Source of the DNA: Rhodopirellula sp. P2
GTDB lineage: Bacteria > Planctomycetota > Planctomycetia > Pirellulales > Pirellulaceae
Length of the DNA stretch: 64,000 nt
Assembly (NCBI RefSeq): GCF_028768465.1
Contig: NZ_CP118225.1
Coordinates: 3,825,001-3,889,000, forward strand
Direction of reading: 5' to 3'
Shown: positions 1,451-23,827 of the stretch, one piece after another
Layout of the letters: every line of letters starts with the position of its first letter
Position numbering within the stretch: position 1 is the stretch's first letter
The notes under the pieces: model-generated
The model's database searches: none
Told to the model about the DNA's origin: nothing
Seen by the model: only the letters and a program-made list of their open reading frames with translations
Made by a program: the position numbers and the translations under genes

Positions 1451-3124
1451 ATGAGAAAACAATCTCCATTCATTCTCACGCCTTTGTGTTTGATATTCGC
1501 CGCGATCTTTTCATCGAACGCGGTGGGTGCCGATTCGCGGCCTAATTTTCTGTTTGTTCTGACGGATGATCAGTCTTACGGCATGATGGGATGCGATGGC
1601 AACGAGTTGACTCGAACGCCCAATATTGACCAATTGGCTCGCGAAGGGATCTTCTTTGATCGAGCGTATGTGACCAGCGCGATCTGCACTCCGAGTCGGA
1701 TCTCGATCTTTCTCAGCCAGTACGAACGCAAGCACGGCGTGAACTTCAACTCCGGAACCAGCGTCGCACCGGAAGCCTGGGCCAAGTCTTGTCCGGTGGT
1801 CATGCGAGACAACGGGTACTACACCGGCTATGTCGGCAAGAACCACGCGCCGATCGGGAAAGGCGGTTACAACAGCGGATTGATGGAAGAGTCGTTTGAT
1901 TACTTCTACGCGGGACACGGACACATTCGTTTCTATCCCAAAGACGTCCATGAGATCTTCGAAGGAGCGGCGTACGACACTCAGGTCGAAATCGTCAATG
2001 AGGGGGCTCAGGACTTCCTTTCGTATGAGCATCGCCTGGACGGCGCGGTGCGATTCCTGGAGGAACGTCCTGCGGACAAACCGTTTTGCTTGAGCATTTG
2101 TTTGAACCTGCCGCACAGTGCAGGAACGGGCAGCATGCAGCAGCGAGAAAGTGACGACGAGATTTACAAGTCTCTCTACCGTGACATCGACATTCCGCTG
2201 CCAAAGCACTACGTCGCCAAGGATGAGATCAAGACGCCGCGTTTGCCTGCTGAGGTGCTGCGGGCCAGCGAACGGCAGGCCAGCTACAACTTTGTCGACA
2301 CGCCTGAACTGTTGAAAGAACGTATCATCCGGCAAATGCAATCGCTGACAGGAATCGATCGTCTGATCGGGAACTTGCGGACCAAGTTGGAAACCGAAGG
2401 GGTGGATGACAACACGATCATCCTCTTTTGTTCCGACCACGGTTTGTTCATGGGGCAGCATGGTCTGGGTGGAAAGGCATTGTGCTATGAGCAGACGACC
2501 CACGTCCCTTTGATCGTTTACGATCCGGAGTTGCCTGCCGTCTTGAAAGGGGCTCGTTGCAACGAATTGGTGCAAACGATCGACATCGCCGCCACGATGC
2601 TGGATCTGGCCGACATCAAAACGCCGGCAACGTTTCAAGGCAAATCGATGCGGCCGTTGTTGAGTGGCGATGGCGGTGCGATTCGTGATCACGTTTTCAC
2701 GGAGAACCTCTGGGTGACCCATTTCGGAAACCCGCGTATCGAAGCGGTTCAAGACAAACGCTGGAAATACATTCGGTATTACCGAAATGACAGTGTGCCT
2801 GCTTCCGTCAAGATGCAGGTGGCCAAGGATCTCGGCATCAAGTCGTCAACCATGCTCTATGGCATCCATGACAACGAGATCGCGGTGTACCGGAATCATG
2901 CGGAAGCGTCTTTGCGTGGCGAGGAACCCATTCACGAAGAACTATTTGATCTCGAAAGCGATCCGGACGAGCTGAACAATCTGATCGACAATCCCGCCGT
3001 GAAGACTCAATTGGAGACGCTTCGCAGCGTTTGGAAGCAGCAACTCACGGAAGCTCGCGGCGAAGGATTCCCGGCGGTGCTTCGCTACACGGTCGATAGC
3101 GAGAAAGATTACAAATCGAAGTGA
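1451..3124 (+). CDS. Secreted type I sulfatase
   Basis: A 557-residue arylsulfatase-family protein that hydrolyses sulfate esters, probably on algal polysaccharides, in the periplasm or outside. It starts with a Sec signal peptide (residues 1-27, ending SNAVGA). The metal-binding start of the alkaline-phosphatase-like fold is RPNFLFVLTDDQS (D39-D40). The formylglycine signature is C79-T-P-S-R, followed by ISIFLSQYERKHG instead of the commoner LLTGR. The second metal site is CSDHGLFMGQHGLGGK, and the C-terminal subdomain has the usual LFDLESDPDELNNL. The cysteine-type site needs a formylglycine-generating enzyme, not seen in this window. The next sulfatase follows directly, so the two probably share a transcript. 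Confidence 0.93.
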   Translation: MRKQSPFILTPLCLIFAAIFSSNAVGADSRPNFLFVLTDDQSYGMMGCDGNELTRTPNIDQLAREGIFFDRAYVTSAICTPSRISIFLSQYERKHGVNFNSGTSVAPEAWAKSCPVVMRDNGYYTGYVGKNHAPIGKGGYNSGLMEESFDYFYAGHGHIRFYPKDVHEIFEGAAYDTQVEIVNEGAQDFLSYEHRLDGAVRFLEERPADKPFCLSICLNLPHSAGTGSMQQRESDDEIYKSLYRDIDIPLPKHYVAKDEIKTPRLPAEVLRASERQASYNFVDTPELLKERIIRQMQSLTGIDRLIGNLRTKLETEGVDDNTIILFCSDHGLFMGQHGLGGKALCYEQTTHVPLIVYDPELPAVLKGARCNELVQTIDIAATMLDLADIKTPATFQGKSMRPLLSGDGGAIRDHVFTENLWVTHFGNPRIEAVQDKRWKYIRYYRNDSVPASVKMQVAKDLGIKSSTMLYGIHDNEIAVYRNHAEASLRGEEPIHEELFDLESDPDELNNLIDNPAVKTQLETLRSVWKQQLTEARGEGFPAVLRYTVDSEKDYKSK

Positions 3125-3171
3125 TGGACTTCGTTGCCAATTCAATTCCCATTCTTCCAGTCAGAGCTCTC

Positions 3172-4608
3172 ATGTTGAAACAAAGTCGTCTTTTATTGTC
3201 GTTGTTGGCGGTCCTGCTCGGCCTTTCAACGTCGGTTGTCTGTGCGAAGGATCGCCCGAACATTGTTTTGATCGTGGCGGATGATCTCGGTTACAGCGAC
3301 GTTGGTTTCAATGGATGCAAGGAAATTCCGACGCCGCATTTGGATGAACTGGCGGCATCGGGTGTGGTCTTCACCAACGGTTATGCGTCGCATCCGTATT
3401 GCAGCCCCAGCCGCGCTGGATTGTTGACGGGCCGCCATCAACAACGTTTTGGTCACGAGTCCAATCCGGAACCGGATACGCAGTGGCACGGCGAAGACAC
3501 GCCGGGCATGCCGCTCTCGGAAACGACATTGGCAGATGCCTTGAAAGAAGCGGGCTACGTCACTGGAGCAATCGGGAAATGGCATTTGGGCGATGCGAAA
3601 CCGTTCTGGCCAAATCGTCGTGGGTTTGATGAATGGTTTGGTTTCAGTGGGGGCGGATTCAGTTACTGGGGTGACTTGGGCAAGAAGGATCCATTGTTGG
3701 GCGTGCACCGAGGTGACGAACCGGTGGACCCCGCAACGTTGACCCATTTGACCGATGACTTTTCGACCGAAGCGGTCAAGTTCATTCAGCGGCATGAGAC
3801 CGAGCCGTTCTTTTTGTACCTGGCCTACAACGCGCCGCATGCACCTGACCACGCGACGCGAGCGCACCTTCAGAAGACGGCCCACATCGAGTACGGAGGG
3901 CGTGCCGTTTACGGAGCGATGGTGGCCGGGATGGACGAGGGCATCGGCCGAGTGGTCGACCAAATTCACGAATCGGGTTTGGGCGAAAACACGATGATCA
4001 TCTTCTACAGTGACAACGGTGGACGGCGCGAGCATGCGGTGAACTTTCCTTATCGAGGTCACAAAGGCATGCTGTTTGAAGGCGGCATTCGCGTGCCTTT
4101 CTTGGTTTCTTGGCCGGGAACGGTTCGGAGTGGCATGAAAGAGGAATCGCCGATCACGGCGCTCGATTTGTTTCCCACCGCACTGGCGGCTGCGGGGATG
4201 GATCCATCTCAGAATGACAAACTCGATGGCCAGAATTTGTTGCCTGTGCTAACCGATGCCGAACAACGTTTGCCAGAGCGGCCTTTGTTCTGGCGATATT
4301 CAATGGGCGACGATTCGTATGGCTATGCCGTTCGCGACGGCGATTGGAAGCTGATCGACAGTCGCTACAAAGATCGGAAGCTGCTGTTTGATTTGGCGAA
4401 CGACCCTTGGGAACGCGAAGATTTGGCTGAGCAGCACCCCGAACAAGTGGCTCGGCTATCTCGAATGATGGAGGCCTGGGACGCCCGCAACGTGCCGCCG
4501 AAGTGGAGCGACGCCCACGGCGCTAACGTTCGGAAGGAAGAGAACACGCGAAACGAAGCCGTCGAGAAAGCCTCCCGAGGAGAACGTGCTCGGCCGGATC
4601 TGGATTAA
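3172..4608 (+). CDS. Secreted type I sulfatase
   Basis: A 478-residue arylsulfatase-family protein. The start chosen is the ATG opening a signal peptide (MLKQSRLLLSLLAVLLGL, cleavage near VVCA); an in-frame GTG at 3121 overlaps the previous stop and would add a non-leader extension. Motifs: IVLIVADDLGYSD (metal aspartates D37-D38), formylglycine signature C77-S-P-S-R-A-G-L-L-T-G-R, GAIGKWHLG, FYSDNGG, and a C-terminal LFDLANDPWEREDLAEQ. It differs from its neighbour around the active site, so the two probably take different sulfated sugars. The TAA stop is the first three bases of the 127-bp hairpin element that follows. Confidence 0.93.
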   Translation: MLKQSRLLLSLLAVLLGLSTSVVCAKDRPNIVLIVADDLGYSDVGFNGCKEIPTPHLDELAASGVVFTNGYASHPYCSPSRAGLLTGRHQQRFGHESNPEPDTQWHGEDTPGMPLSETTLADALKEAGYVTGAIGKWHLGDAKPFWPNRRGFDEWFGFSGGGFSYWGDLGKKDPLLGVHRGDEPVDPATLTHLTDDFSTEAVKFIQRHETEPFFLYLAYNAPHAPDHATRAHLQKTAHIEYGGRAVYGAMVAGMDEGIGRVVDQIHESGLGENTMIIFYSDNGGRREHAVNFPYRGHKGMLFEGGIRVPFLVSWPGTVRSGMKEESPITALDLFPTALAAAGMDPSQNDKLDGQNLLPVLTDAEQRLPERPLFWRYSMGDDSYGYAVRDGDWKLIDSRYKDRKLLFDLANDPWEREDLAEQHPEQVARLSRMMEAWDARNVPPKWSDAHGANVRKEENTRNEAVEKASRGERARPDLD

Positions 4609-5068
4609 GCAGGTACGCAGGTGTCATCGGGTATGTGAGCCGTTGGCGTTAGCCACGGTTTTCACGCGCAACCGGGGCGAACGCTGGACTGTCAAAAGGT
4701 TGGTATTGACACGGAAAATGCGACATTGATTTTTATTCTGTCCTACGCCCCAACGGGGTAGCTCTAAGATAGCCCCAGGCATCGCCTGGGGTTTCGTTAC
4801 GGAGATTCAGACACCAGCCCCAACGGGGCGGCCCTAAGAAAGACTCCCCAAAACCTGCTAGGACCGCCCCCGTTGGGGCTTTGTAATCTTGGTCCCGCCA
4901 CAACCCAGGGCGTTGCCCTGGGCTGGCATAGGGCTGCCCCGTTGGGGCGAAGTCGAGGAACGAAACCTGCGCAGTCCAAAGCGGTGTCAATACCAACCTT
5001 TTGACAGCCCAGGCGAACGCCCAAACGGCTCACATGGTTGTGCCCGATCATTCCAGCCGACCTGCTTA
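4606..5068. repeat. 127-bp hairpin element, interrupted by a MITE
   Basis: Removing the inserted element plus one 9-bp target copy (336 bases) leaves exactly 127 bases, the length of the intact copy at 21910-22036 (opposite orientation), and the two match almost base for base. The ends are inverted (TAAGCAGGT ... ACCTGCTTA), and inner arms such as ATGTGAGCCGTT and AACGGCTCACAT pair, so the whole unit folds as one long hairpin. Its first three bases are the stop codon of the upstream sulfatase. TA at both ends is compatible with a TA-target MITE, but REP-type origin is also possible. Confidence 0.85.
4685..5011. mobile_element. 327-bp MITE with 28-bp inverted ends and 9-bp target duplication
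   Basis: The terminal inverted repeats are 4685-4712 (TGGACTGTCAAAAGG...) and 4984-5011, 28 bases with one mismatch; their inner 24 bases (4689-4712 and 4984-5007) are perfect. The element is flanked by a direct repeat GGCGAACGC at 4676-4684 and 5012-5020. The uninterrupted 127-bp copy at 21910-22036 has a single such site (GGCTAACGC), so this is a true insertion. The interior has no convincing gene but holds several GC-rich mini-palindromes of the type GCCCCAACGGGGC. It is therefore non-autonomous; no transposase of matching ends is present in the window. Confidence 0.88.
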
Positions 5069-10749: not shown

Positions 10750-11117
10750 TTGGATTGCCTGGGGAAGGGACACCGCGAGGGGCAAGACACCGTTGTTGGG
10801 TGTCATTGAGGCCGCGATGAAGGCAACGAGGCGTCGTCACGACCTCGTGGGTGCTGTGGGGGCACAGGGGTGGGAGGCATTGGGTTGCAATGGCCTTGGA
10901 GGTGGGATTGTACCCCGTCGGTTAGCGGGAAGCCACCAAACCGTTCGCAAGGCAACTCCGGCTTTGAATTGAGATCCGATTGATAAGGAGATCACCAGCC
11001 TGGGTGGTCGATTGGTTGACGATGGACAACCGTTCCGTGAAGCCGTGCTGGATCAGCGATGTCTTGGTCGGGGAAGCAGGAGTCATTCGGCATTTGAACT
11101 GTTTGGCGAACGTCACT
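10750..11117. other. Gene-free stretch upstream of the PSCyt/PSD1 operon
   Basis: About 370 bases without a convincing gene. Short frames exist on both strands but lack leaders, family motifs and ribosome binding sites. The part next to 10750 must contain the promoter of the minus-strand operon, but no clear -35/-10 pair was identified. Confidence 0.5.
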
Positions 11118-11192
11118 GTTCCCACGTGCAACCGGGGCCAACGCCCAAACGGATCACATGGTTCTTCCCGATCATTCCTGCCCACCTGTTTC
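11118..11192. repeat. Decayed half copy of the 127-bp hairpin element
   Basis: The sequence matches the right half of the 127-bp element: GCAACCGGGGCCAACGCCC, then CACATGG, then CCCGATCATTCC and CCACCTG. The left half is missing and the end is mutated (CTGTTTC instead of CTGCTTA). It overlaps the 3' end of the minus-strand glycosyltransferase gene, whose TGA stop (11172-11174) lies in it. Confidence 0.7.
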
Positions 11193-12449
11193 GACCTGCC
11201 GGCAAAGTTCGTTGGCAAGTTGTTTCGCGGTCGCGATATCCGATGCGTTGATGTCGGCCGCAACCATCTCCGTCAGTTGGTGGACCAATTGATCGGGGCG
11301 TTTGAAATCTTCCCCGTTGACACGATGGCAATTCGCCTCTTGCTGAAGGTGGCCAATGGCGGATACTGCTCGAGCATGGTGAACGGCATCCAGCCCAACC
11401 GGTGGTCTCGGGTTTTCAGCGTTGACCACGATCAAGATCGCGTGCGGCCACGCGGATCGAATCTCCCGATGCATCAAGGCGAGTTTCGGTTGTGTCGCAC
11501 CGATTGGCATCATTGGATTGGCGGACTTCAAACGCCGGTCAGCCCACATTTTCAAATGGCAAATACGGAACGCGTCATCATTGGCAAGATGCCACGCCGG
11601 ATCAACGACCAAGTGGTTGCAAACGGTATCGAGCCCCGGCGCACAGTAGGATTCCGGTGCTTGGTCGATTGATCCCGGTGGCGGTGCATTCCCAAATGAA
11701 ATGCCCAAACGATGCAGGATGGCGGCGACAATCAGTCGGTGCCTCCGATCAATTCCAATCACCACGACGACGGGCCGATCGATTGGCAGGTCGTAGAACG
11801 ATCGTGCATCGGGAAAGAAGCTGGCTTCGAGATGCTTTCGTTTGATGTTGCTGTAGCCCGCTTCCTGTCCGATGAGCCAGCGATCGGGACAATACAGCCC
11901 CGTCTCAAGCGTTGCGTGCATCTCGCCGAAACGATGGTCAATGTGGTGTTTCTCGCCCCATGAATCACGGTCATGCAAATGAGCGACCACCCTTTGCATG
12001 GCGGTGGTACCGCGTAACGCATACGCGTGGCTACGATGCACATTGTACGGCCTGTAGACATGCTCGGTGATCGGGATCGGCAGACCTCGCTCTCTTTGGA
12101 TGTGTTGCCCGCCCAAGTAAACCCACTGCCAATCGGTTGGGAGTTCCGTTGCGAACCGTTGAAAGAGTCCACTGAACTCGGGATGACAAAACGCGTCGTC
12201 TTCCATCACGAGCAATGACTGGACCTGATCGTTGATGGCTTGCTCGATCACGAACTGATGGGAGCGAAAACAGCCCCAGGCGGCATTCCCCGCAACCCAC
12301 CATGGCGGCCCTGGAATTCGAGAGCCATCCAATGCCGAGAACCGCTCTGGTTTGGGAAAGGGCCAATCGACCGGCAAAGCCTGATAGAAACGTTGCAGTC
12401 GCTTGGAGTCGCGATCGAGATTGATCACCACAGCACGCTCGATTTCCAT
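11172..12449 (-). CDS. Glycosyltransferase family 25 (LPS biosynthesis) protein with decayed P-loop-like C-terminal domain
   Basis: A 425-residue protein. The start at 12449 (alternative 12455) was chosen because homology begins there, MEIERAVVINLDRDSKR; a longer frame to 12638 has no family features. Residues 1-205 look like GT25: VVINLDRDS, then FSALDGS, the MEDDAF motif (E83-D85) near the donor site, VYLGGQH, a HAYALRG segment and DHRFGEM. Residues 226-254 read VVVVIGIDRRHRLIVAAILH and then RLGISFGN, the outline of a sulfotransferase-type P-loop but without its GxHRSGTS core. The last residues (ETGGQE) are encoded by a decayed repeat element. Probably a glycan-modifying cytoplasmic enzyme. 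Confidence 0.7.
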   Translation of the reverse strand: MEIERAVVINLDRDSKRLQRFYQALPVDWPFPKPERFSALDGSRIPGPPWWVAGNAAWGCFRSHQFVIEQAINDQVQSLLVMEDDAFCHPEFSGLFQRFATELPTDWQWVYLGGQHIQRERGLPIPITEHVYRPYNVHRSHAYALRGTTAMQRVVAHLHDRDSWGEKHHIDHRFGEMHATLETGLYCPDRWLIGQEAGYSNIKRKHLEASFFPDARSFYDLPIDRPVVVVIGIDRRHRLIVAAILHRLGISFGNAPPPGSIDQAPESYCAPGLDTVCNHLVVDPAWHLANDDAFRICHLKMWADRRLKSANPMMPIGATQPKLALMHREIRSAWPHAILIVVNAENPRPPVGLDAVHHARAVSAIGHLQQEANCHRVNGEDFKRPDQLVHQLTEMVAADINASDIATAKQLANELCRQVETGGQE

Positions 12450-12658
12450 CGTCATCGACTTGCCCTCCTTCGCTTTCGGGAACCATGGAATCCATCGTGA
12501 TGGACGCGGGTCAGCACGGAATCTTTGCTCGATGATCCATTTTATCGCGATTTCATTGCGTCGGGGGACCGATGGGTGTCGATCGACTGACGCCTTCGGA
12601 ACGGGTGACCTTGCTTGGTAAGCCGACCCGTCAGCCACGGATGGGATGTGAATCGCTC

Positions 12659-21625: not shown

Positions 21626-21853
21626 TTAGCGTTCAAGAGGCTGAGTGGGGATGCCATCCGGAGGGGCGTGCTCGTCGCATTTTTTGCACTCCAGGTGGTG
21701 GCCGAGCATTGAGTCGCGGCCTTGGGGGGTGGTGACCCAGGGGCGATTCATCCATGGCGGGTCGTGGCGGACGTGTTGATTGTGTCCGCACGCAAGACGT
21801 GCGACCCAGTGGTTTTCTTCGTCCGTGAGGTACGCGACGATGGGTTGTTGCAT
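21626..21853 (-). CDS. DUF3565 family protein
   Basis: A 75-residue protein of the DUF3565 family. It begins MQQPIVAYLTDEENHWVARL at the second in-frame ATG, chosen because the family starts there. It then has CGHNQHVRHDPPW, NRPWV and a C-terminal CKKCDEHAP. Cysteines and histidines (CGHNQHxRH, CKKC) suggest a small zinc-binding fold. Function unknown. It stands alone, upstream of the intact 127-bp element. Confidence 0.85.
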   Translation of the reverse strand: MQQPIVAYLTDEENHWVARLACGHNQHVRHDPPWMNRPWVTTPQGRDSMLGHHLECKKCDEHAPPDGIPTQPLER

Positions 21854-21909
21854 CAGAACTCTCGAAGGCAATTTGGTTCACCCGGAACGCGTCAATCGAT
21901 GCTCGGCAC

Positions 21910-22036
21910 TAAGCAGGTCGGCTGGAATGATCGGGCACAACCATGTGAGCCGTTTGGGCGTTAGCCCCGGTTGCGTGTGAAAACCGTGGCTAACGCCAAC
22001 GGCTCACATACCCGATGACACCTGCGTACCTGCTTA
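21910..22036. repeat. Intact 127-bp hairpin element
   Basis: An undisturbed copy, opposite in orientation to the one at 4606-5068. It runs TAAGCAGGT ... ACCTGCTTA with long inverted inner arms and a short loop around GTTGCGTGTGAAAACC. Read on the minus strand, its first three bases are the TAA stop of the GH5 gene (22034-22036). The hairpin follows directly in the transcript and could act as a terminator or 3'-end protector. Confidence 0.88.
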
Positions 22037-23596
22037 GTTCCCGAGGATGGCGTCGCGGAGGCTTTCTCGCCATTCGTCTTGCTCGGGATCGTAAACTCCG
22101 AACCCGGAGTAGAACTCCCAGTAGGCGATTCCGATTCGTCGCTTGATGGCTTCGTCGGCGACGAAACGGGTCCATTGATTTCGCGATTCCATGTCGGCTT
22201 CTTGATAAGCGCCAAACTCACCGAGGTAGATGGGGACCTCGTTTTCAACGCTCCAGCGCAAGGCTCGATCGAGATCGTTGCGAACGGCCTTTTGTTGCTC
22301 GGGGGTCCCGGTCCAGGTCGTGCCTTTCCAGCGTTTGGATTCTTCGCCCAACCAACTGGCACCTTGGTGCGTGAATTGAAACGGGGAGTAGTAGTGGAAG
22401 GTCGCAACCAAGTTGGCGCGATCTTCGGGGAGTTTCAGGAACTGCAATGCATCAATCGAATTGAAGTTCGCTGGTCCAACCACGATGGTCCGAGTGGGAT
22501 GTTTCTCACGAATGATCGGCAAGGTGTCCGTCAACAGACGATTCCATTTGCCCGCATCCAAGTTTTCGTGAGGCTCGTTGAGGACTTCGAACACCAGTTC
22601 ATCCGGTGCACCTGCGAATGCATCCGCGATCTGTCGCCACAATTCCAGGAACCGCTCGTGATGTTGTTCCGGATTCGCGTACAAGCCCTCGTAGTGATGA
22701 ATGTTGATCATCACTTTCAGATCCCGGCGAAGAGCTTCGTCGACGACCCACTGAACCCGCTGCATGAACTGGGGATCGATTCGGTACGGCGTAGTCTTGG
22801 ATGCATGGGTCGACCAGCGAACGGGGACACGAATGGAATCAAACCCGGCCTGTTGAATCTGATCCAAGTGCTTGGCTTCCAAGCGAGGTCCCCAATCGCC
22901 TTCGCGGGGAGCTTCCAAGGTGTTGCCAATGTTGACCCCGCGTCCGAAGAAGGGCGTTTGGCTTCGGAAGAATGCTGATGTCTTGAGTTGTTCCAACAAA
23001 CGTGACTCGCTGACGGCGCGGAGACGCTGGATCACAATCGAACTTTCCCGGGCGGGTTTTTCGATCATGACCGACACCGACTGAACTTTGGCGGAATCAA
23101 AAGGCACATCCGTTTGACCGTGCCAACTGCCAAACGCGACTCGAATCACCCCGGATGAATTCGCGGGCACCGTTGCCGCTGCGGCACTGCTGCCGTCGCG
23201 ACCTTGTGATCCGGGGTTGCGAGTCGACAACACGACCTTGACCGGTTGGTCCCCAGGATTGAAGACATCGGCTTCCAAGGCGTCAAAGGCTTCCAAGTCG
23301 AGTGGTTTGCTGGTGGCATCGAACTGCACATCCGGGTAGCCGTTGCTCGGCGGAACCGTCAGCTTCAGCGAGCCGTTGGGAGCACGTTCGATCTGGGCGT
23401 TTTGAGAGGTGATCTTGATGTTTGTGATCGCATTCTCGCCGAACAAAATCTTTTCGCCGTCCGAGTCCTTTTCATTGTCCGGGGATTGTGCGGCCACGGT
23501 TGTCGAGTTGGCAGCGAAGAACCCCGTCGCGGAGAGTACCAAAACCGGGAGCCAGTGCGGCAGACGAAGACGGATACCAAGCGTGCAAACGAACAT
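22034..23596 (-). CDS. Secreted GH5-family glycoside hydrolase (cellulase-like)
   Basis: A 520-residue protein; the ATG at 23596 opens a leader (MFVCTLGIRLRLPHWLPVLV, cleavage near VAAQS), preferred over a TTG 60 bases upstream. Residues ~50-210 are a beta-rich, carbohydrate-binding-like domain (DVQFDATSKPLDLEAFDALE). The catalytic GH5 barrel follows: GVNIGNTLEAP, FDSIRVPVRWS, INIHHYEGL, acid/base glutamate in VFEVLNEPHENL, HYYSPFQFTHQGASW, and nucleophile glutamate in IYLGEFGAY. It should cleave beta-1,4-glucans or mannans outside the cytoplasm. The stop codon belongs to the 127-bp repeat. It stands alone. Confidence 0.92.
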   Translation of the reverse strand: MFVCTLGIRLRLPHWLPVLVLSATGFFAANSTTVAAQSPDNEKDSDGEKILFGENAITNIKITSQNAQIERAPNGSLKLTVPPSNGYPDVQFDATSKPLDLEAFDALEADVFNPGDQPVKVVLSTRNPGSQGRDGSSAAAATVPANSSGVIRVAFGSWHGQTDVPFDSAKVQSVSVMIEKPARESSIVIQRLRAVSESRLLEQLKTSAFFRSQTPFFGRGVNIGNTLEAPREGDWGPRLEAKHLDQIQQAGFDSIRVPVRWSTHASKTTPYRIDPQFMQRVQWVVDEALRRDLKVMINIHHYEGLYANPEQHHERFLELWRQIADAFAGAPDELVFEVLNEPHENLDAGKWNRLLTDTLPIIREKHPTRTIVVGPANFNSIDALQFLKLPEDRANLVATFHYYSPFQFTHQGASWLGEESKRWKGTTWTGTPEQQKAVRNDLDRALRWSVENEVPIYLGEFGAYQEADMESRNQWTRFVADEAIKRRIGIAYWEFYSGFGVYDPEQDEWRESLRDAILGN

Positions 23597-23827
23597 TTCT
23601 AACTCGAGTGAAAATGGTGAGGGTGAGGGACGAGACTCCGAGACCACCGACTGCAATCATATCCCATCCCAAAACAAAGATGCACGCGTCGGAACCCCAA
23701 ACGGACTCTCGCGGTCAGCTACAATGGGCGAAGTCGTCTGAGGACGAGTCCCGCCCCATCTGATCCGCCCACTGATCGTCCCCACAATCGATCACCGGCT
23801 TCCGATCCAGCCCCTGGAACCGCAGCC

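Follow-up and report, generated by a model that had tools for sequence, protein, structure and literature searches.

A probable IS630/Tc1-type miniature element of 127 bp that can lie in stop codons of unrelated Rhodopirellula genes

Several families of short bacterial repeats share features with the 127-bp element described here. The nearest precedent is RUP with IS630-Spn1, a likeness of design only. In the cited passages of two sources, RUP is about 107 bp long, exists in >100 copies, is intergenic, carries TA at its ends and stops in six frames, and has terminal inverted repeats resembling those of a resident IS630 (PMC2229807, PMC3049150). The 127-bp element is likewise multicopy, TA ended, and intergenic, with IS630-like terminal inverted repeats and stops in all six frames. 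Whereas RUP is AT rich, the 127-bp element has a host-like GC content (57%) and resides in a planctomycete. RUP is described in those passages as overrepresented between convergent genes, an excess that is not significant for our element, and the passages make no mention of RUP inserting inside native stop codons, as the 127-bp element does. BOX of pneumococcus resembles our element in encoding gene stops; as the relevant part of PMC3049150 has it, 36 of the 58 annotated CDSs that BOX overlaps take their 3' stop codon from it, with evidence for truncation that is not strong. BOX differs in being modular, with different terminal inverted repeats and a link to ISSpn2, not IS630. In the same part, all three repeat families are reported to be overrepresented between convergent genes, which is interpreted as tolerance.

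Among autonomous elements, ISY100 and IS630 (Tc1/mariner-type IS) insert at TA and duplicate it, as does the 127-bp element; an excerpt of PMC2170065 reports insertion of ISY100 in vitro at TA with TA duplication in 34 of 39 products. Such elements encode a transposase, whereas the 127-bp unit has stops in every frame. REPs are 20- to 40-bp palindromes with a GTAG or CGTC end tag, and, according to the passages cited, the termini of GTAG-tagged REPs often give flanking ORFs a TAG stop, which recalls the 127-bp element (PMC3733652); unlike it, they are short, tagged, and linked to RAYTs. Correia/NEMIS elements, in the section cited, are MITEs with TA at their ends, about 107 and 155 bp long (PMC2229807); they share the TA ends but differ in their Neisseria host, and RNase III cleavage and an IHF site are reported for them. 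Neither term of interest appears in a 2024 review on MITEs of prokaryotes, which mentions neither stop codon nor IS630 in the main text available (PMC10969869). A RUP/IS630-Spn1-like MITE is already a known type, and the coincidence of the present element with stop codons is explained by a neat and checkable reason.

The window analyzed here is a stretch of 64,000 nucleotides (bases 3825001 to 3889000) from the single-contig, 7.29-Mb genome of Rhodopirellula sp. P2 (G000). It contains two full copies of the element in opposite orientations (Table 1). Copy 2 is uninterrupted, while copy 1 comes to 127 bases once a 327-bp insert and one 9-bp duplication are discounted; with the insert and one GGCGAACGC removed, the two agree at 125 of 127 positions, in keeping with the near identity reported in the initial annotation. 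That the first three bases of the element are the TAA of both a sulfatase and a GH5 gene, also reported there, is confirmed by the reading frames. The element ends are mirror images, TAAGCAGG...CCTGCTTA, so that TAA is offered by either end, whichever the orientation. The unit has no coding capacity. Its hairpin is far beyond chance (z scores of -10.0 as DNA and -9.1 as RNA), its stability being reached by 0 of 200 shuffles in either case. The insert within copy 1 is a second, unrelated MITE with 28-bp terminal inverted repeats (TGGACTGTCAAAAGG..) that have one mismatch, and sequences matching it over 320 bp or more occur at nine other fetched loci. The TGA of a minus-strand frame with a weak score (11172 to 12638) lies within the decayed relative of the element, ~18 bases from its edge.

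Table 1. Coordinates of the elements and adjoining genes in the window
Feature	Position	Strand	Remarks
127-bp MITE copy 1	4606..5068	+	Contains the second MITE; bases 1-3 serve as TAA of the sulfatase gene upstream
127-bp MITE copy 2	21910..22036	-	127 bp; TTA at 22034-22036 reads as TAA for the minus-strand GH5 gene
Decayed element relative	about 11076..11191	+	79% identity over query 12-126; ends not intact
Sulfatase gene ending at copy 1	3121..4608	+	Pfam Sulfatase; frame closed by TAA 4606-4608; end new in this lineage
GH5 hydrolase gene ending at copy 2	22034..23656	-	Pfam Cellulase/GH5; frame closed by TTA 22034-22036; orthologues in 6 relatives end alike without the element
Second MITE, unrelated, within copy 1	4685..5011	+	327 bp; 9-bp target duplication GGCGAACGC

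A search of the own genome with the element returned 42 near-full-length copies (E-values of 2.3e-51 or below), and 58 such copies, sized 125 to 129 bp, were extracted from fetched loci. With the interrupted window copy, the genome total is at least 59. This is a lower bound, as it draws on the first places of the end motif TAAGCAGGTNNNNNGG, which occurs 173 times in the genome versus 12 times for the reversed control. Half-elements (matches of about 64 bp), matches of <76% identity, and those covering less than about 115 positions were excluded from classification. Among the 58 extracted copies, 51 are 92.5 to 100% identical to copy 2. Matches at 1e-5 were found in 13 of the 40 genomes searched (own included), in 2 of 28 genera, and copies in the related strain G009 reach 99% identity. 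Many half-elements of the own genome (L051 to L080) share the right 64 bp alone or are 129-bp relatives at 76 to 78% identity, pointing to probable subfamilies. At G000:C1:4225718-4226268, three copies form a tandem array with a 212-bp period. The flanks of the inverted copies 2729325 and 4648905 are swapped in G009 (L242 and L243), where three of the flanks match over about 1.5 kb at 91 to 95% and the fourth matches in two pieces; G003 has both 2729325 flanks together. The swap is as a 1.9-Mb inversion through recombination between the copies would give, and a draft-assembly misjoin at the 127-bp repeat is also possible.

To define the target, flanks were counted for 43 of the 59 copies, those with at least 90% identity and TA at both ends (16 were left out). 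Base -1 is a pyrimidine in 40 of the 43 (p = 1.5e-9 versus one half) and base +1 a purine in 36 (p = 4.5e-6 versus one half), which gives the palindromic target YTAR. Across all 59 copies, YTAR accounts for 46, followed by CTAC (7), GTAG (3), CTAT (2), and ATAA (1). Stop sites, of which 12 were called in all, make up 4 of the 13 targets off strict YTAR (857891, 1284307, 3172289, and 3905583); on the gene strand, 3172289 and 3905583 remain TAG targets. A preference of IS630 for CTAG is reportedly the subject of a paper, going by its title.

The joined flanks of 22 sites were then searched in G009 and G003, with junctions aligned to fetched loci. Junction-spanning matches were obtained in these two genomes for 9 of the 22 queried sites and for none of the other 13. 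At eight of the nine, two bases lie between the flanks: the empty site keeps TA at 1113024, 1188513, 3172289, 3905583, and 5984521, and has two bases with a substitution at 3947010, 376985, and 3829606. The junction at 2142067 aligned with gaps. Site 5984521 lies within another repeat family, of which G003 and G009 together have 13 element-free copies, and at 376985 the evidence comes from a repeat family akin to the second MITE, in six copies. The element makes a 2-bp TA duplication, as IS630/Tc1 elements do; of the origins that the initial annotation had proposed, an IS630/Tc1-type MITE with TA target duplication is the one upheld by the empty sites, by the YTAR flanks, and by the IS630-matching ends described below. 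YTAR targets of the IS5 type would entail duplication of 3 or 4 target bases. A duplication of this length was rejected, since the left TAA and right TTA are not mutual copies and the empty sites show two bases.

Flanking sequences held further repeats. Composite query 3684 to 3775, a flank of copy 5495036, belongs to another repeat family, and query 4012 to 4189, the flanks of 5984521, to a different one, each with many matches in G009 and G003; the 127-bp MITE has inserted in or beside repeat families at both places. In the G009 copy at site 3403254 (L129), extra bases separate the element end from the common flank (CCTGCTTG TCTAGCG), so it differs from the P2 copy in its duplication or in what happened later.

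How the element comes to end genes is best seen from orthologues that lack it. Eighteen open frames of at least 150 codons reach an element end, and the first TAA closes 13 of them; the others fall three and two into the remaining two frames (13 of 18 versus one third, p = 0.0009). Orthologue ends were compared at eight of the twelve stop sites ever called (all but 6267438, 857891, 3058956, and 1284307), and the nine stop-site reading frames scanned for Pfam domains, from eight sites, are supported by them. The GH5 gene ends at the same place in all six relatives without the element, with TAG in G009, G003, G004, G006, and the distant G010 and TGA in G011. Element-free orthologues also end at the same codon for a KAS III gene (TAG in G009 and G003), a BNR protein (TAG in G009, TAA in G003), and the sulfatase at 2729325 (TAA in G003). 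At 1584353, both genes of a convergent pair stop at the same codons in G003, with TAG and TAA, and a different repeat lies between them there. The sigma-70 factor at 4648905 and the DUF547 gene at 3403254 were compared with occupied orthologues alone. Element-free orthologues were seen for six stop sites, and at five of these the gene ends at the same codon without the element, a result that the initial annotation had itself set against its proposal of a mobile terminator cassette. As those orthologues already stop at that codon, at GH5 and the four other sites the element replaced a native stop by TAA and added no new stop. The G009 DUF4112 gene at 1584353 (L128) has a history of its own: CAA stands in place of its stop TAA, and reading continues for six codons to a TAA in the element, by which this gene end is now made.

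The exception is the window sulfatase, whose relatives read past the stop at 4606 to 4608 in G003 (97% identity), G004, G006, and G011; the first, second, and third of these have TTG at the stop position. In G009, a separate in-frame TAG precedes this place by a few codons, and G001, G002, G005, G007, G008, and G012 (60 to 66% identity) stop within about six codons of the sulfatase end. Because these six distant relatives stop so close by, the window gene ends where shorter homologues do; because the closest relatives do not stop there, its end is new in its own lineage. The target rule suggests that TTG changed to TAG first and that insertion came afterwards. The initial statement that the element supplies stop codons to unrelated genes is mostly incorrect, as it does not describe GH5 and the four sites with a native stop in orthologues.

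To place the copies relative to genes, we used a home-made codon-usage caller, its models trained on the window or retrained on 400 kb from 20 spaced stretches. With the window-trained model, the 59 joined sites comprise 48 intergenic, 11 stop, and 0 coding; with the retrained model, 46 to 48 are intergenic, 10 to 12 at stops, and 1 coding. Background YTAR sites of the same 400 kb are 346 to 357 intergenic, 30 to 33 stop, and 145 to 153 coding. Stop codons hold 10 to 12 of 59 copies versus 4.5 to 5 expected after 4-mer matching (p = 0.003 to 0.013), about 2.2 to 2.4 times background, and the excess persists when copies with shared flanks are merged (p = 0.0017 to 0.007); the expectation is rough, as the crude caller marks 72 to 73% of the background sample as coding, below the 84% of the window. 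Divergent gaps are depleted (4 of 53 copies versus 84 of 369 background sites, p = 0.010), and convergent gaps show no significant enrichment (17 of 53 versus 94 of 369, p = 0.32), in an orientation test made at one caller threshold with unknown-neighbor sites dropped (6 of 59 copies and 10 of 379 background sites). With divergent sites taken out of the background, 12 of 54 copies are at stops versus 11.2% (p = 0.015). In four relatives, at least 46 element copies are present among the matches listed, with 5 of 22 at stops in G009, 1 of 10 in G003, 1 of 10 in G004, and 0 of 4 in G006; 2 of 10 in G003 and 1 of 10 in G004 were called coding. Among the G009 copies not common to P2, 3 of 16 are at stops, again among the matches listed.

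The stop codon excess is real but modest, roughly twofold. The initial claim that position at stop codons is conserved holds to the extent that this small bias exists. We read most of the excess as tolerance, that is, purifying selection on TA insertions, with a mild preference possible. A stronger version, in which the same MITE has a transposition machinery that favors stop codons or the 3' ends of genes to TA sites elsewhere, draws on the significance of the excess, with or without merging, and on the G009 copies not common to P2. We regard it as quite unlikely: the bias weakens without the divergent background sites, its expectation depends on the caller just described, and selection against other intergenic sites would give an equal bias. 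Pure tolerance is no obvious explanation for an excess of this size. In the window (1 to 64000), TGA, which the element cannot hit silently, ends 32 of 42 called genes.

The initial annotation suggested a mobile terminator cassette, a reading in which the hairpin would be selected at gene ends for terminating transcription and for offering a stop codon in every frame. The stability of the hairpin, the stops in all six frames, the stop codon excess, and the G009 DUF4112 gene that now reads to the element TAA would all suit it. Yet no terminator-like site was found around copy 2 (21700 to 22250), where the stem is followed by no T run or U tract and the element ends in CCTGCTTA; no promoter-like site was found around this copy either. 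Most copies (46 to 48 of 59) are intergenic and off stop codons, convergent gaps are not significantly enriched, and genes of relatives that lack the element stop at the same codon. Covariation can be read both ways. RNAalifold gave a weak 13-pair structure for 104 aligned copies, and pair counts were therefore made on the copy 2 fold. Double pair changes number 30 in 29 distinct old copies versus a shuffle mean of 19.8, and 29 in all 94 distinct copies versus 15.0, with 0 of 200 shuffles reaching the observed count in each case. However, 50 distinct young copies have double changes in 1 cell versus 1.3 in shuffles, 220 of 1,421 pair cells are broken in the old copies, and the shuffles ignore relatedness, so that inherited subfamily differences can yield an excess. 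Support for a host function that would keep the hairpin in place is thus weak, though not absent, and we consider a terminator cassette very unlikely.

The ends of the element match those of an IS630 element in the same genome. Only one IS630 transposase gene of P2 lies above the family cutoff (NF033545, 203 bits); it is an intact 341-amino-acid ORF with a DDE_3 domain, in an intact element of 1,193 bp (G000:C1:800211-801403) bounded by the longest inverted repeat of the locus, TAAGCACGTCTGCATGAGTCATCGGG / TAAGCACGTCGGCAGGTGTGATCGGG. Scored against the best of three MITE end versions, the termini of this IS match at 23 and 21 of 26 positions, facing inward, and are the best two places in 3.9 kb, versus 18 of 26 for the best of 60 shuffles. 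The MITE and the resident transposase element thus have terminal inverted repeats in common. A partner search covered 13 relatives in 49 locus views among the matches listed, several of one place. Matching ends on both sides of the gene were found there for the own-genome copy, for its G009 counterpart (21 and 21 of 26, with one in-frame TAA), and for two related copies in G008 (19 and 17), and no IS with paired ends closer to the MITE was found in these 49 views. Single better ends, at 26 and 25 of 26, lie by an IS630-like gene in G003 (L146) and in the own genome (L145 and L162); they were rejected as partners and look like MITE pieces, as no partner end lies across the gene. From the shared ends, the MITE was probably mobilized in trans by the transposase of the 1,193-bp IS630 or a near relative. 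The actual mobilizer may be another, lost IS, given that the IS ends differ from the best MITE end version at 3 and 5 of 26 positions.

The initial annotation had also raised a REP element moved by a RAYT. A REP/BIME-type palindrome mobilized by this Y1 transposase would agree with the palindromic and mostly extragenic nature of the repeat, and GTAG REPs are reported, in the passages cited above, to give TAG stops to flanking ORFs (PMC3733652). The TA duplication observed against empty sites does not fit such a mover, the element is 127 bp long with TAAGCAGG/CCTGCTTA ends that have no GTAG or CGTC tag, and these ends match an IS630 element; we find this origin hardly credible.

We conclude with high confidence that the 127-bp element is a non-autonomous IS630/Tc1-type MITE that inserts at TA, is silent in stop codons, and has survivors sorted by selection. 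It would be cut and pasted in trans, probably by the transposase of the 1,193-bp IS630 or that of a near relative. TA is the insertion site, in most cases as part of YTAR, and becomes duplicated. Where TA occupies codon positions 1 and 2 and a purine follows, the in-frame TAR is itself already a stop codon, which would account for the coincidence with gene ends. Since the duplicated TA precedes an A as the first element base at both ends (TA|AGC), insertion would rebuild TAA and leave the protein unchanged, with orthologue support at five sites. Insertions within genes would break them and be removed by selection, as their rarity suggests; the expected survivors are copies in intergenic DNA, rarely between divergent genes, plus those in TAG and TAA stop codons. 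The strong hairpin would be the inverted-repeat architecture of the transposon itself, with no dedicated terminator role implied.

A more far-reaching idea is that the transposon is "stop transparent," its terminal A being kept for silent colonization of TAG and TAA stops in either orientation, after which decay of the native sequence would leave the host dependent on the element stop. The MITE and the IS both carry this A next to the duplicated TA, at either end, and the G009 DUF4112 gene suggests such later dependence; we hold the idea to be doubtful. If true, gene ends would have been opened as safe sites.

No literature joining Rhodopirellula with miniature inverted elements was found among that searched, and both the MITE family and the IS630 element that is probably its partner may be new to the literature. 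What had seemed a stop codon cassette reduces to a rule, by which TA duplication, a YTAR target, and an end that starts with A together make insertion silent at TAA and TAG. The rule provides a clean test of neutral tolerance versus preference, and it predicts where such MITEs survive. For annotators, it means that TAA codons made by the element should not be taken as truncations.
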